In this document: piece by piece, positions 38,350-41,428 of the stretch | How positions within the stretch are numbered: position 1 is the first letter of the stretch | Layout of the letters: every line of letters begins with the position of its first letter | NCBI GenBank assembly: GCA_029972225.1 | Contig: CP124756.1 | Location: forward strand, 124,001-188,000 | From: Candidatus Thiothrix putei | GTDB taxonomy: Bacteria > Pseudomonadota > Gammaproteobacteria > Thiotrichales > Thiotrichaceae | Direction: 5' to 3' | Length of the DNA stretch: 64,000 bases | The notes under the pieces: model-generated | Databases searched by the model: none | Told to the model about the DNA's origin: nothing | What the model saw: the letters and a program-made list of their open reading frames with translations, nothing else | Translations under genes and position numbers: made by a program

Positions 38350-39345
38350 TTAAATAATGGCGAGCACTTCTTGATGTGCTGCTTTGCTGAGGCGTGCCCC
38401 GAACACGGTTACGATTTGTGCTGCGGATAAACTCGCTAGTTTCCCTGCTTGGGCATTATCCATGCCTTGGGTGATGCCGTACAAGAACGCACCTGCAAAC
38501 ATATCCCCTGCGCCGTTGGTATCGACCGCTTTTACCGGGTGTGCCGCAATTTCAGTGCGCCCAGTTGCATCGACGACCAGTGCACCTTGGCTACCTAAGG
38601 TTATCACCAGTTTGCCAGCGTAAGGCTTAATCGCTCGAATGGCGTCTTCCAGATCATCCTTGCCGGTAAAAACGCTGGCTTCTTCGCGATTGCAGAATAA
38701 AATATCTGCACCATCGCCCAGCATCTCATCCACACCACTACGGAAGAAACGCACCATTGCCGGGTCAGAGAATGTCATCGCCGTTTTTACACCGTGTTCC
38801 TTAGCGACTTGTCTGGCTTTTAAAGCGGCTGCTCGTGATATGTCTGAGGTCACCAAATAGCCTTCGATATACAAATAGTTGGATTGCTTGAGTTCATCCA
38901 AGTGCAATTCGGCTTCGGAAAAGTCAGCGGTAATCCCTAAAAACGTATTCATGGTGCGTTCCGCATCGGGTGTCACCATCACCATACACTTGCCCGTTAC
39001 GCCTTCGCTGGCTCCGCGCACCTGATCAAGGCGGGTATTTACCCCAGCGGCGTGTAAATCATGCATGTAAAACTCGCCGCTTTCGTCATTCGCTACTTTA
39101 CAAGCGTAAAACGTTTTACCCCCAAACTGACTAATCGCTACGATGCTGTTAGCGGCTGAACCACCACTGGCACGCTTTTTCAACCCAAAAGTGTCGGTCA
39201 AACCAGCGATTAAGTGTTGCTGTTTCGCCTCATCAATCAGGGTCATCATGCCTTTTTGGATGCCATGCGCTGCCAAAAAGTCTTCTGTCACCTCAAATTC
39301 TTTGTCCACTAGTGCATTGCCAATACCGAATACGTCGTATTTCAT
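38350..39345 (-). CDS. PfkB-family adenosine kinase-type carbohydrate/nucleoside kinase
   Basis: 331 residues. The N-terminus YDVFGIGNALVD and the central RASGGSAANSIVAISQFGGKTFYACKVANDESG are typical of the PfkB subgroup annotated as adenosine kinase in Proteobacteria. The catalytic base is in DTNGAGDMFAGAFLYG near residue 270. It probably phosphorylates adenosine or a related nucleoside or sugar with ATP; the substrate is not proven. GGGGAC lies upstream of the ATG. Its 5' side faces the long intergenic region with DnaA boxes. Confidence 0.87.
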   Translation of the reverse strand: MKYDVFGIGNALVDKEFEVTEDFLAAHGIQKGMMTLIDEAKQQHLIAGLTDTFGLKKRASGGSAANSIVAISQFGGKTFYACKVANDESGEFYMHDLHAAGVNTRLDQVRGASEGVTGKCMVMVTPDAERTMNTFLGITADFSEAELHLDELKQSNYLYIEGYLVTSDISRAAALKARQVAKEHGVKTAMTFSDPAMVRFFRSGVDEMLGDGADILFCNREEASVFTGKDDLEDAIRAIKPYAGKLVITLGSQGALVVDATGRTEIAAHPVKAVDTNGAGDMFAGAFLYGITQGMDNAQAGKLASLSAAQIVTVFGARLSKAAHQEVLAII

Positions 39346-39464
39346 CGTGTCCCCGTCAGATTATTGCTTGAAAATGCCTTGTACCTTATCTAGGTTTTCT
39401 TTTCCAGCATTTACCCTGCAATCTGCTACACTGTGCCACCGTGAGCCAGCTTAACGTTACACAC

Positions 39465-39737
39465 TTACCCACAAACTTTTCCCCAGAGTTATCCACGAAG
39501 TTATCCACAGGAAAGAAGCTTATCAACACAGTGTTATTTACCATAGAAAAAGCTGTTGATTGTCAGTGCAAGAGGAAGGCAGTCAGCATCTGCGTATCGT
39601 TAGTCTGGTTATTTACACCATTTGTCTAAAAAATCTGTTTTTTAATATTAGGTTCAGCGAAGCGTCTGAAAAAAACCAACAAGGTGTAACGGTGTCAAAC
39701 CTCCTATCTTTTTATCAGGCTGGCAGACTTATCCACA
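39465..39737 (+). other. DnaA-box cluster (candidate replication origin or DnaA-binding locus)
   Basis: The gene-free stretch 39346-39792 (447 bases) carries two perfect consensus DnaA boxes TTATCCACA (39501-39509 and 39729-39737). Near-matches on the same strand are TTACCCACA at 39465, TTATCCACG at 39489, TTATCAACA at 39520 and TTATTTACA at 39609. The boxes at 39489 and 39501 are 12 bases apart. AT-rich runs lie between 39620 and 39720. This density in non-coding DNA fits an oriC or a DnaA-titration/reactivation locus. No dnaA, dnaN or gidA gene is in the window, so the origin call is tentative. Confidence 0.55.
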
Positions 39738-39770
39738 ATCGCTGTCAGCAGAATGTTTACCTAGAGGCGA

Positions 39771-39786
39771 TGTTTCACGTGGAGCT
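39771..39786 (+). promoter_or_regulatory. parS-like sequence next to the DnaA boxes
   Basis: TGTTTCACGTGGAGCT matches the conserved ParB-binding site TGTTTCACGTGAAACA at 13 of 16 positions; the first 11 are identical and only the right arm deviates. It lies 34 bases after the last DnaA box and just before the heptosyltransferase start. The right arm also contains the ribosome-binding GGAG of that gene. Confidence 0.4.
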
Positions 39787-39792
39787 TGTCTG

Positions 39793-40773
39793 ATGTCAGT
39801 ACGTAACATTCTGATCATTAAAACATCATCTTTGGGTGATGTGGTACACATGCTACCCGCGATTACTGATGCCAGTCGCCAGCATCCAGGGCTGAACATT
39901 GATTGGGTTGTAGAAGAAAATTTTGCTGAAGTTCCCGCTTGGCATCCATCTGTCGGGAATATTCTGCCAGTTGCCATTCGTCGCTGGCGTAAACACGTGT
40001 TCAATCGAACAACTTGGCAGGAAATAAGCGCCTTTCACCGACGCTTACACCAGGTGCAGTATGATGCAATTATTGATACACAAGGTTTGTTGAAAAGTGC
40101 CCTGATTGCAGCCTTCGCCCAAGGAAAACGTTACGGTTATGACCGCCATAGCATCCGTGAACCGCTGGCTAGCGTGCTGTACCAACAAGGGTTTAGTGTC
40201 GATAAGCAACGCCATGCGATCACCCGTAACCGCCTGTTGATGGCACATGCCTTGGGGTACAGTATTGAAACCTTGCCGCTGGAGCACGGTATTGCAGGTG
40301 GCACTTACCCTTTGCCTAATTTACCGCTTCCCAGCCGCTACGTGGTTGGCTTACACGGGACTAGCCGGGTTGACAAAGAATGGCCGGAAACACACTGGCA
40401 AACCCTGCTGACTGCGCTGGCAGAACAAGGGATTAGCACCTTATTGCCTTGGGGAAATGCACGTGAACACGCACGGGCGCAACGGCTTGCTCAAGTCACT
40501 GAGGGTGTACAGGTACTGCCGCGTAGTGGTTTAGGGGAACTCGCCGCCATCATGCAGCAGGCAGTCGGGGTTATCGGCATGGATACGGGTTTGATGCATA
40601 TTGCAGCCGCTTTGGATAAGCCGGGTTTGGCTCTGTACCCCGTTACTCAGCCTGCTTTGACTGGCATACAGGGTAACAGCCGCAGCACTAACACCTTGGA
40701 AAATCTCAGTGGTGCAGACACGCAGGATGCGGAAGCGGTTACCCAGCGTTTGCTGAATCTGTTGCTTAAATAA
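39793..40773 (+). CDS. waaC: lipopolysaccharide heptosyltransferase I
   Basis: 326 residues of the GT9 family. It adds the first heptose to Kdo in the LPS inner core, at the cytoplasmic face of the inner membrane. The N-terminus ILIIKTSSLGDVVHMLPA, the WVVEENFAEVPAWHPSV segment, LHGTSRVDKEWPETHW (ADP-heptose binding) and GVIGMDTGLMHIAAALDKPGLALY are characteristic. GGAG is eight bases upstream of the ATG. It converges with the hydrolase gene, the two ends overlapping by eight bases. Confidence 0.92.
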   Translation: MSVRNILIIKTSSLGDVVHMLPAITDASRQHPGLNIDWVVEENFAEVPAWHPSVGNILPVAIRRWRKHVFNRTTWQEISAFHRRLHQVQYDAIIDTQGLLKSALIAAFAQGKRYGYDRHSIREPLASVLYQQGFSVDKQRHAITRNRLLMAHALGYSIETLPLEHGIAGGTYPLPNLPLPSRYVVGLHGTSRVDKEWPETHWQTLLTALAEQGISTLLPWGNAREHARAQRLAQVTEGVQVLPRSGLGELAAIMQQAVGVIGMDTGLMHIAAALDKPGLALYPVTQPALTGIQGNSRSTNTLENLSGADTQDAEAVTQRLLNLLLK

Positions 40774-41428
40774 ACTGACCTGTGTGCAGGAAATGTTGGA
40801 TATAAGTATATGTTAACGGGGAAAACAGCATCCCTGTGTGGGATACTCGTTGCTGGATACGCACTGTTTGTGCCGGATGGTATGCTTCTACAACACTGAC
40901 CGCACCATCATTAGGTTCACCCAATAAAAAGGGTGAGCCTAAACCTAATGGCAAGGTTCCGATAATCGCTCCCCATTCACGTCCAATGTTAGTAGGTATA
41001 TTAACACCGGCTAAACCTGCATCCATGCTGTTACCAAATGCCAAGCCCAATAGTGGTAAGGGTTTGATCATTCGCGCAATTTTGCTGCCTTGAATCGGTG
41101 TACCTAAGGTGACGAGACGGCCTGGTGGTAGTTCGGGGTGTTGACTCAACAAATGCAATGCAACAATTCCACCCAAACTGTGTGCGACGAGGTGTAGATA
41201 ATCTGTGGATAAGCTTTGGATAAACAGGTGTAAGCGCTCAGCATTTTGAGCAGGCGTCAGACTAACAGAGGCATAAGCAGGTACTTTGACAAGATAACCT
41301 GCTTGCCGTAAGCGCCTTGCTAGTGTTTGTAATACCAGCGGGCGCATCCAAATACCGTGCAAGAGCACGATGGTTGAAGTGGTAATGGTGCTAACCCTCC
41401 AGTTCTGCCCGCAGGCGTTCTTCCTCAC
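40766..41428 (-). CDS. alpha/beta-hydrolase (lipase/esterase-like)
   Basis: 220 residues from a GTG at 41428. The oxyanion region LLHGIWMRPLVLQTLARRL is followed by the nucleophile elbow HLVAHSLGGIVALHLL (GxSxG), an Asp in EPNDGAVSVVEA and the catalytic-type His in QRVSHTGMLFS, so the triad looks complete. The substrate is unknown. The start is uncertain: the GTG has no ribosome-binding site. A clear GGAGGG lies about 10-15 bases before an ATT codon 14 codons further in, so initiation at that unusual codon is possible. The 5' end overlaps the FimV-like gene. Confidence 0.78.
   Translation of the reverse strand: MRKNACGQNWRVSTITTSTIVLLHGIWMRPLVLQTLARRLRQAGYLVKVPAYASVSLTPAQNAERLHLFIQSLSTDYLHLVAHSLGGIVALHLLSQHPELPPGRLVTLGTPIQGSKIARMIKPLPLLGLAFGNSMDAGLAGVNIPTNIGREWGAIIGTLPLGLGSPFLLGEPNDGAVSVVEAYHPAQTVRIQQRVSHTGMLFSPLTYTYIQHFLHTGQFI

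Follow-up and report, generated by a model that had tools for sequence, protein, structure and literature searches.

The box cluster and its neighbours

The locus lies within a 64,000-bp stretch of DNA (hereafter the window) that covers positions 124001–188000 of the 4,277,058-bp (4.28-Mb) single-contig genome of Candidatus Thiothrix putei. Between open reading frames at 38350–39345 (minus strand) and 39793–40773 (plus strand) of the window is a gap of 447 bp (39346–39792), and this gap holds six DnaA boxes, all on the plus strand and together spanning 273 bp (Table 1). Two of the boxes are perfect and four carry one mismatch. Our recount agrees with the original prediction in the number, position and strand of these boxes and in the 12-bp pitch of the central pair, and their clustering goes beyond that of shuffled sequence: the maximum in 300 approximate dinucleotide shuffles of the window was four same-strand boxes per 273 bp, compared with the six observed. 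Box matches over the window as a whole were not enriched (61 versus a shuffled mean of 55.7). Genome-wide, the perfect box TTATCCACA occurs 61 times, compared with 16 for a reversed-pattern control, and perfect boxes less than 1 kb apart are found at two places only, namely the cluster gap and genome positions 107865–107997 in the gap between dnaA and dnaN.

With respect to the flanking genes, waaC had been correctly named (TIGR02193), and the neighbour described as adenosine kinase-type holds as far as the PfkB family (PF00294), with no NCBIfam model passing its cut-off for this gene. The kinase gene is transcribed away from the boxes. A further, inverted box had been placed in coding sequence at 41204–41212; it is real and sits within an alpha/beta-hydrolase gene (PF12697), where two one-mismatch boxes flank it to give three tandem boxes with an 11-bp pitch at 41193–41223 on the minus strand. 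The 41204–41212 box is perfect in three of six comparable genomes (the window's, G012 and G004) and absent in the other three, and for this lack of conservation it was rejected as a part of the element.

The parS-like site TGTTTCACGTGGAGCT is assigned by comparison with what we take to be the parS consensus. A match with three mismatches is expected by chance 0.36 times per window. The site is retained in 10 of the 16 genus genomes, two of which lack an adjoining waaC, and is 52–61 kb distant from those parS sites that lie close to dnaA.

Table 1. Features in and around the cluster gap, in window coordinates
Feature	Position	Strand	Sequence or family	Occurrence and remarks
PfkB-family kinase gene	38350–39345	-	PF00294	Constant neighbour; adjoins 17/17 pattern-found elements in relatives
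Accessory near-box	39465–39473	+	TTACCCACA	Common only to window genome and nearest relative, G012
Box pair	39489–39509	+	TTATCCACG at 39489, 3-bp spacer, TTATCCACA at 39501	12-bp pitch; 15/16 genus genomes upstream of pfkB, window's included
Accessory near-box	39520–39528	+	TTATCAACA	Common only to window genome, G012 and G005
Middle motif	39598–39631	+	CRNTTRTCNG..AAAA.....CC..TTRTC	34 bp; from Gibbs search
Near-box within middle motif	39609–39617	+	TTATTTACA	Window's genome only, among 30 examined; not conserved as a DnaA box
T-tract right behind middle motif	39638–39646	+	TTTTTTAAT	8/14 genus genomes aligned
Third box	39729–39737	+	TTATCCACA	219 bp past pair; 14/16 genus genomes
parS-like site	39771–39786	+	TGTTTCACGTGGAGCT	3 mismatches to parS; overlaps likely waaC ribosome-binding site; element membership uncertain
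waaC, LPS heptosyltransferase I	39793–40773	+	TIGR02193, 376 bits (cut-off 185)	Variable neighbour

Conservation and internal geometry

Sequence upstream of the kinase gene was surveyed in 30 genomes (16 genus members and 14 other family members) of the 37 with an orthologous PfkB-family match. Among the 16 Thiothrix genus genomes, the window's included, 15 have the pair and 14 the third box. The two incomplete cases are G008, which has no boxes and in which a relative of the window's hydrolase (52% identity) directly adjoins the kinase gene, and G006, which has the pair only, on a contig that ends 331 bp upstream. Of the other family members, G017 and G019 carry the full set and 12 of 14 do not. 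A search for the exact pattern among 372 relatives returned 17 genomes, comprising 14 of 16 in the genus, the single genome of group g3 and two of nine in group g5 (G017, G019 and G057 in these two groups), and all 17 elements lie upstream of a PfkB homologue. The reversed-pattern control gave zero occurrences in the same 372 genomes. At the DNA level, a search with the gap sequence matched 14 of 57 genomes, its own included, the match in G017 being the dnaA–dnaN gap of that genome.

Within the element, spacing is held closely. In the 14 genus members that carry the complete pattern, pair and third box are separated by 205–220 bp (216–220 bp in 13 of them; sd 3.7 bp), whereas the kinase start codon lies anywhere from 40 to 143 bp away from the pair (sd 38 bp). 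Box and pair-spacer positions in 13 relatives are identical to the window's at 28–30 of 30 sites, a figure that is partly built in as these genomes were chosen by the pattern; the unselected counts of 15/16 and 14/16 are the fair test. The interior, by comparison, is 50–62% identical to the window's in 12 of the 13 relatives and 85% identical in the closest. This conserved, constrained box geometry amid a diverging interior is the part of the originally proposed DnaA-control locus that is observed directly; control of DnaA itself is considered below as a proposal.

On the far side, the neighbour is waaC in eight genus genomes. In six others (G001, G009, G002, G010, G014 and G003) a different reading frame, encoded on the same strand as the kinase gene, takes its place, and the only one of these six that was searched, in G010, is FimV-like (TIGR03505, 89.7 bits versus a cut-off of 43.5). 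A hydrolase homologue occupies this side in G019 and G057. The element is thus tied to the kinase gene rather than to waaC. These observations bear on the suggestion that the boxes merely form a waaC promoter region, or occur by chance: the waaC start is 56 bp past the third box in the window, but the element persists in the six genomes with the other reading frame, and both clustering and conservation exceed chance expectation, making either explanation barely credible.

A Gibbs search of 14 element interiors (12 from the genus, together with G019 and G057) returned a 34-bp middle motif composed of two similar half-sites of the C-R-N-T-T-R-T-C type, about 21 bp apart. Its information content was 28.9 bits, compared with 16.4–16.6 bits for shuffled interiors, a contrast that overstates the significance of the motif because interior shuffling ignores relatedness. 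Stronger support comes from the fixed position of the motif amid poorly alignable sequence, as it starts 86–89 bp past the second box in the 12 genus genomes and 94 bp past it in G019 and G057, and from a match in the held-out Thiofilum genome (G017). Specifically, a model built without G017 gave a top score of 18.1 at that locus (next best 11.3), 89 bp past box 2 and 131 bp before box 3. In leave-one-out scans of stretches of 140–448 kb, the element's copy ranked first in four of six cases and second in the other two (G005 and the window's genome). The T-tract TTTTTTAAT behind the motif is absent in G002, G010, G014 and G003. The middle motif was also considered as a promoter, with two GATAA-like half-sites and a spacer of about 17 bp on the kinase-ward strand; this was unconvincing by eye, the −10-like half being poor in the window's clade.

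The Thiofilum element places the same geometry, with a 220-bp gap, in a different setting. The kinase start is 407 bp away, and the element is embedded in a reading frame of 286 amino acids that encodes a domain of glycosyl transferase family 2 (PF00535, 64 bits versus a cut-off of 23.3); waaC follows this reading frame. Binding-site positions and glycosyltransferase codons therefore overlap in this genome (L177, 614–1474). The element can thus occur in coding sequence and still preserve its internal geometry. This is relevant to the main rival explanation, in which the element serves as a promoter region through which DnaA regulates the PfkB-family kinase, looping between pair and third box to repress or time the kinase gene. 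Such a role would agree with the constant presence of the kinase gene, which adjoins all 17 pattern-bearing elements and is transcribed away from them, and with the short distance between pair and start codon in the genus. It accounts less well for a box-to-gene distance that varies ten times as widely as the internal spacing, and for the greater distance and foreign reading frame in Thiofilum, and no constant promoter position emerged; overall, we regard this explanation as unlikely.

In terms of chromosomal position, the element lies 12–158 kb from dnaA (0.3–4.3% of the contig or genome) in each of the 10 genomes that have both on one contig. It occurs on either side of dnaA and its orientation is not conserved, pointing away in six genomes and toward dnaA in four. 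In G008, a genome with no element, some 133 kb likewise separate the kinase gene from dnaA; proximity to dnaA may therefore be inherited along with the kinase gene and is no proof of selection on position.

To place the geometry in a wider context, 84,980 species genomes yielded 79 stretches that satisfy its strict form. Seven of these lie beside a PfkB homologue (six Thiothrix and one Thiofilum), 29 lie beside a DnaA or DnaN homologue, including six from Competibacteraceae of which four also show DnaN, and 43 have neither a PfkB nor a DnaA/DnaN homologue in the stretch compared. Geometry alone is consequently not diagnostic, while the combination of geometry, location and middle motif is. The resemblance to arrays beside dnaA in Competibacteraceae also raises the idea that drift has preserved the element as a remnant of an ancestral or duplicated oriC. 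Boxes and spacing that are held while the interior diverges suggest present selection instead, and the middle motif is absent from the dnaA–dnaN gap of the window's genome, where the best score is 4.4 compared with 28.5 for the element (18.6 when the element is left out of the model). A drifting relic is accordingly very improbable.

Anatomy of the probable chromosomal origin

The original prediction offered the cluster as a possible chromosomal origin separated from dnaA. In the window's genome, the dnaA domain maps to genome positions 108561–109043 on the minus strand, 55 kb from the cluster, and the adjacent dnaN was assigned from its translation. In all 16 genus genomes, the gap between these genes has at least four boxes (perfect or one mismatch away) no more than about 200 bp from the dnaA stop codon. 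Its weakest 50 bp adjoins the dnaN start and measures 46.5–52.3 kcal/mol in the 16 genomes, against a background of 450-bp pieces of the window's genome in which the 1st and 5th percentiles are 50.9 and 55.7 kcal/mol. The corresponding values for the 14 elements scored are 52.2–61.4 kcal/mol, a range that just touches that of dnaA–dnaN, and the dnaA–dnaN gap has the weaker duplex in each of these 14 genomes (330 bp scanned versus 235–250 bp). Perfect parS is found at genome position 105608, with one- or two-mismatch sites at 102948, 103097 and 111905, and each of the 16 genus genomes has at least one parS site (at most two mismatches) within about 10 kb of dnaA.

A DnaA-trio-like run of at least two, starting exactly 14 nt past a box, is present in 13 of 16 dnaA–dnaN gaps, and at least three strict trios beside a box are present in nine of the 16 but in none of 14 elements; the latter counts score strict trios, a tighter rule than that of PMC8287927. 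The succession of DnaA-box, spacer and trio corresponds to the origin anatomy described in the part of PMC8287927 consulted. No trio-like run follows a box with at most one mismatch in the dnaA–dnaN gaps of G010 and G003. The window's genome has two strict trios in its dnaA–dnaN gap and two in its element, which tie; it is on the remaining genomes and on duplex stability that the contrast between origin and element depends. With respect to array size, G008 (L078), which lacks the element, has the largest dnaA–dnaN array of the 16, with 11 boxes within about 165 bp; the arrays of G007 and G011 are also expanded, yet these two genomes retain the element.

GC skew gives a noisier picture. A skew minimum at dnaA–dnaN was what the original prediction said would count against an origin at the cluster, and this is only approximately what the raw skew of the window's genome shows: there is a local low at about 105–110 kb, although the 448-kb stretch reaches its lowest point at 37 kb. 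On either side of the cluster raw skew is mostly positive, and skew at fourfold-degenerate sites is +0.078 from dnaA to the cluster and +0.098 beyond it, with no sign change at the cluster; the fourfold-site minimum in this genome falls at the stretch edge. In all five relatives examined (stretches of 140–400 kb), the fourfold-site minimum is closer to dnaA than to the element, at 4 versus 84 kb in G001, 5 versus 39 kb in G003, 13 versus 172 kb in G005, 51 versus 109 kb in G010 and 23 versus 48 kb in G015. The raw minimum of G005 is closer to the element (51 kb) than to dnaA (108 kb), and that of G010 is at the stretch edge. Skew therefore disfavors the cluster as the origin without pinpointing where the origin is, and because it is noisy, our verdict leans more on the lack of a sign change at the cluster and on origin anatomy.

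Taken together, these results indicate that the origin is probably the dnaA–dnaN gap and not the cluster. An origin, or second active origin, at the cluster would draw on its several boxes, on an AT-rich interior (AT 0.54–0.66 in the elements scored across genomes), on trio-like runs of three to four that appear in several elements once the link to a box is dropped, on the raw skew minimum of G005 and on the similar geometry beside dnaA in the six Competibacteraceae. The window's own element is also comparatively easy to melt (54.0 kcal/mol over 50 bp, under the 5th percentile), though less AT-rich than dnaA–dnaN. Nonetheless, dnaA–dnaN has a box array, the weaker duplex, box-linked trios and nearby parS sites, the fourfold-site minima lie nearer dnaA, skew does not turn at the cluster and G008 does without the cluster altogether. 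The origin claim has therefore been set aside as very unlikely, and the case illustrates how DnaA-box clusters alone can mislead origin prediction.

A proposed role in DnaA control

Detailed knowledge of DnaA-controlling sites outside oriC comes mostly from Escherichia coli, with some work in Bacillus subtilis. We propose that the cluster is a further such site, a DnaA-binding control element working in the manner of datA or of the Bacillus DnaA-box clusters, and we put the probability of this reading at roughly 60%. The geometry fixed over 250 bp, its independence of the far neighbour and the additional motif suggest that the element is the seat of one nucleoprotein complex. DnaA would bind the pair with its 12-bp pitch and, about 227 bp away, the third box; these two ends would probably be joined over the middle motif by a predicted DNA-binding partner. 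Since it is fairly near oriC, the element would be copied shortly after initiation, and the doubled element might then sequester DnaA or promote turnover of its ATP, leaving less free or ATP-bound DnaA and so restraining re-initiation at the dnaA–dnaN origin. Proteins of E. coli-type DnaA control do occur here: all 16 genus genomes encode Hda, and that of the window also encodes IHF-alpha; the element would thus add to regulatory inactivation of DnaA and not replace it.

Several observations count against this control reading. The kinase gene always adjoins the element, which makes regulation in cis possible; G008 dispenses with the element and G006 with the third box; and the orientation of the boxes relative to dnaA varies. 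In addition, IHF, Fis and GATC sites have no conserved positions in the elements. At up to one mismatch, WATCARNNNNTTR, which we take to be the IHF consensus, is absent in seven of 16 elements and has no position common to all, the G005 element having one perfect match and the window's three one-mismatch matches. Perfect matches to the Fis consensus occur in three of 16 elements (G005, G019 and G057) and not in the window's.

Comparison with known systems helps to define what the element could be. Clustered boxes outside but near oriC, a feature of titration-type clusters, are found here in all 10 genomes in which the distance to dnaA could be taken. In B. subtilis, DnaA-box clusters have been reported to lower available DnaA, although the review consulted in part also calls this case weak (PMC5295017). 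They resemble the present cluster in lying outside oriC, and the title of the original paper describes them as oriC-proximal; the Thiothrix genomes differ in having a single element in which three boxes keep a strict geometry and a motif unrelated to DnaA boxes is conserved as well. Titration by this element would be by analogy. DnaA boxes are also described as enriched near E. coli oriC in the portion of PMC12371093 seen.

Judging from extracts of the relevant papers, E. coli datA likewise comprises at least three boxes close to but outside oriC, whose spacing is under selection (PMC4585315, PMC10950094, PMC5742627), and is reported to lower free or ATP-bound DnaA (PMC5742627). In datA, however, an IHF site lies between the essential boxes, whereas the element has no conserved IHF consensus site; stimulation of DnaA-ATP hydrolysis is a further mark of datA. 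The E. coli sites DARS1 and DARS2, as presented in excerpts of PMC5742627, are also clusters with three main boxes outside oriC, but the DARS core has opposed boxes I and II, in contrast to the three same-strand conserved boxes spread over 250 bp in the element, and DARS2 has IHF and Fis sites of which the element shows no conserved counterpart. Set beside oriC with its DnaA-boxes and DnaA-trios, in the sections of PMC8287927 used, the element shares a box array and an AT-rich interior and differs in lacking a box-linked run of at least three strict trios, in its less weak duplex and in its position off the skew turn.

Because defining features that we tested are not found in it, the element is not classed as datA or DARS. 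A more specific version of the control reading, which we put forward tentatively and consider doubtful as it stands, is an element specific to Thiothrix and close relatives that inactivates or titrates DnaA, in which a bender other than IHF acts on the 34-bp motif to close the loop of about 227 bp from a high-affinity pair to the distal box, datA-like in effect but separately evolved. In the open-licence literature, as judged from titles and the beginnings of abstracts, we found no account of the cluster. Were the control reading true, this kind of DnaA control would arise with different parts in another gammaproteobacterial lineage, dispensing with the IHF and Fis sites known from datA and DARS2, and the element offers an exact 250-bp target for test.

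Two further groups of records share the strict geometry and have no DnaA/DnaN homologue in the stretches compared. Nine Exiguobacterium records (L209, L212, L219, L238, L241, L258, L259, L261 and L269) have a pair and a single box spanning 229–230 bp and may represent a conserved cluster of their own. In three Moraxella records (L225, L235 and L271), the same geometry spans 252–253 bp, and one of them has two copies.
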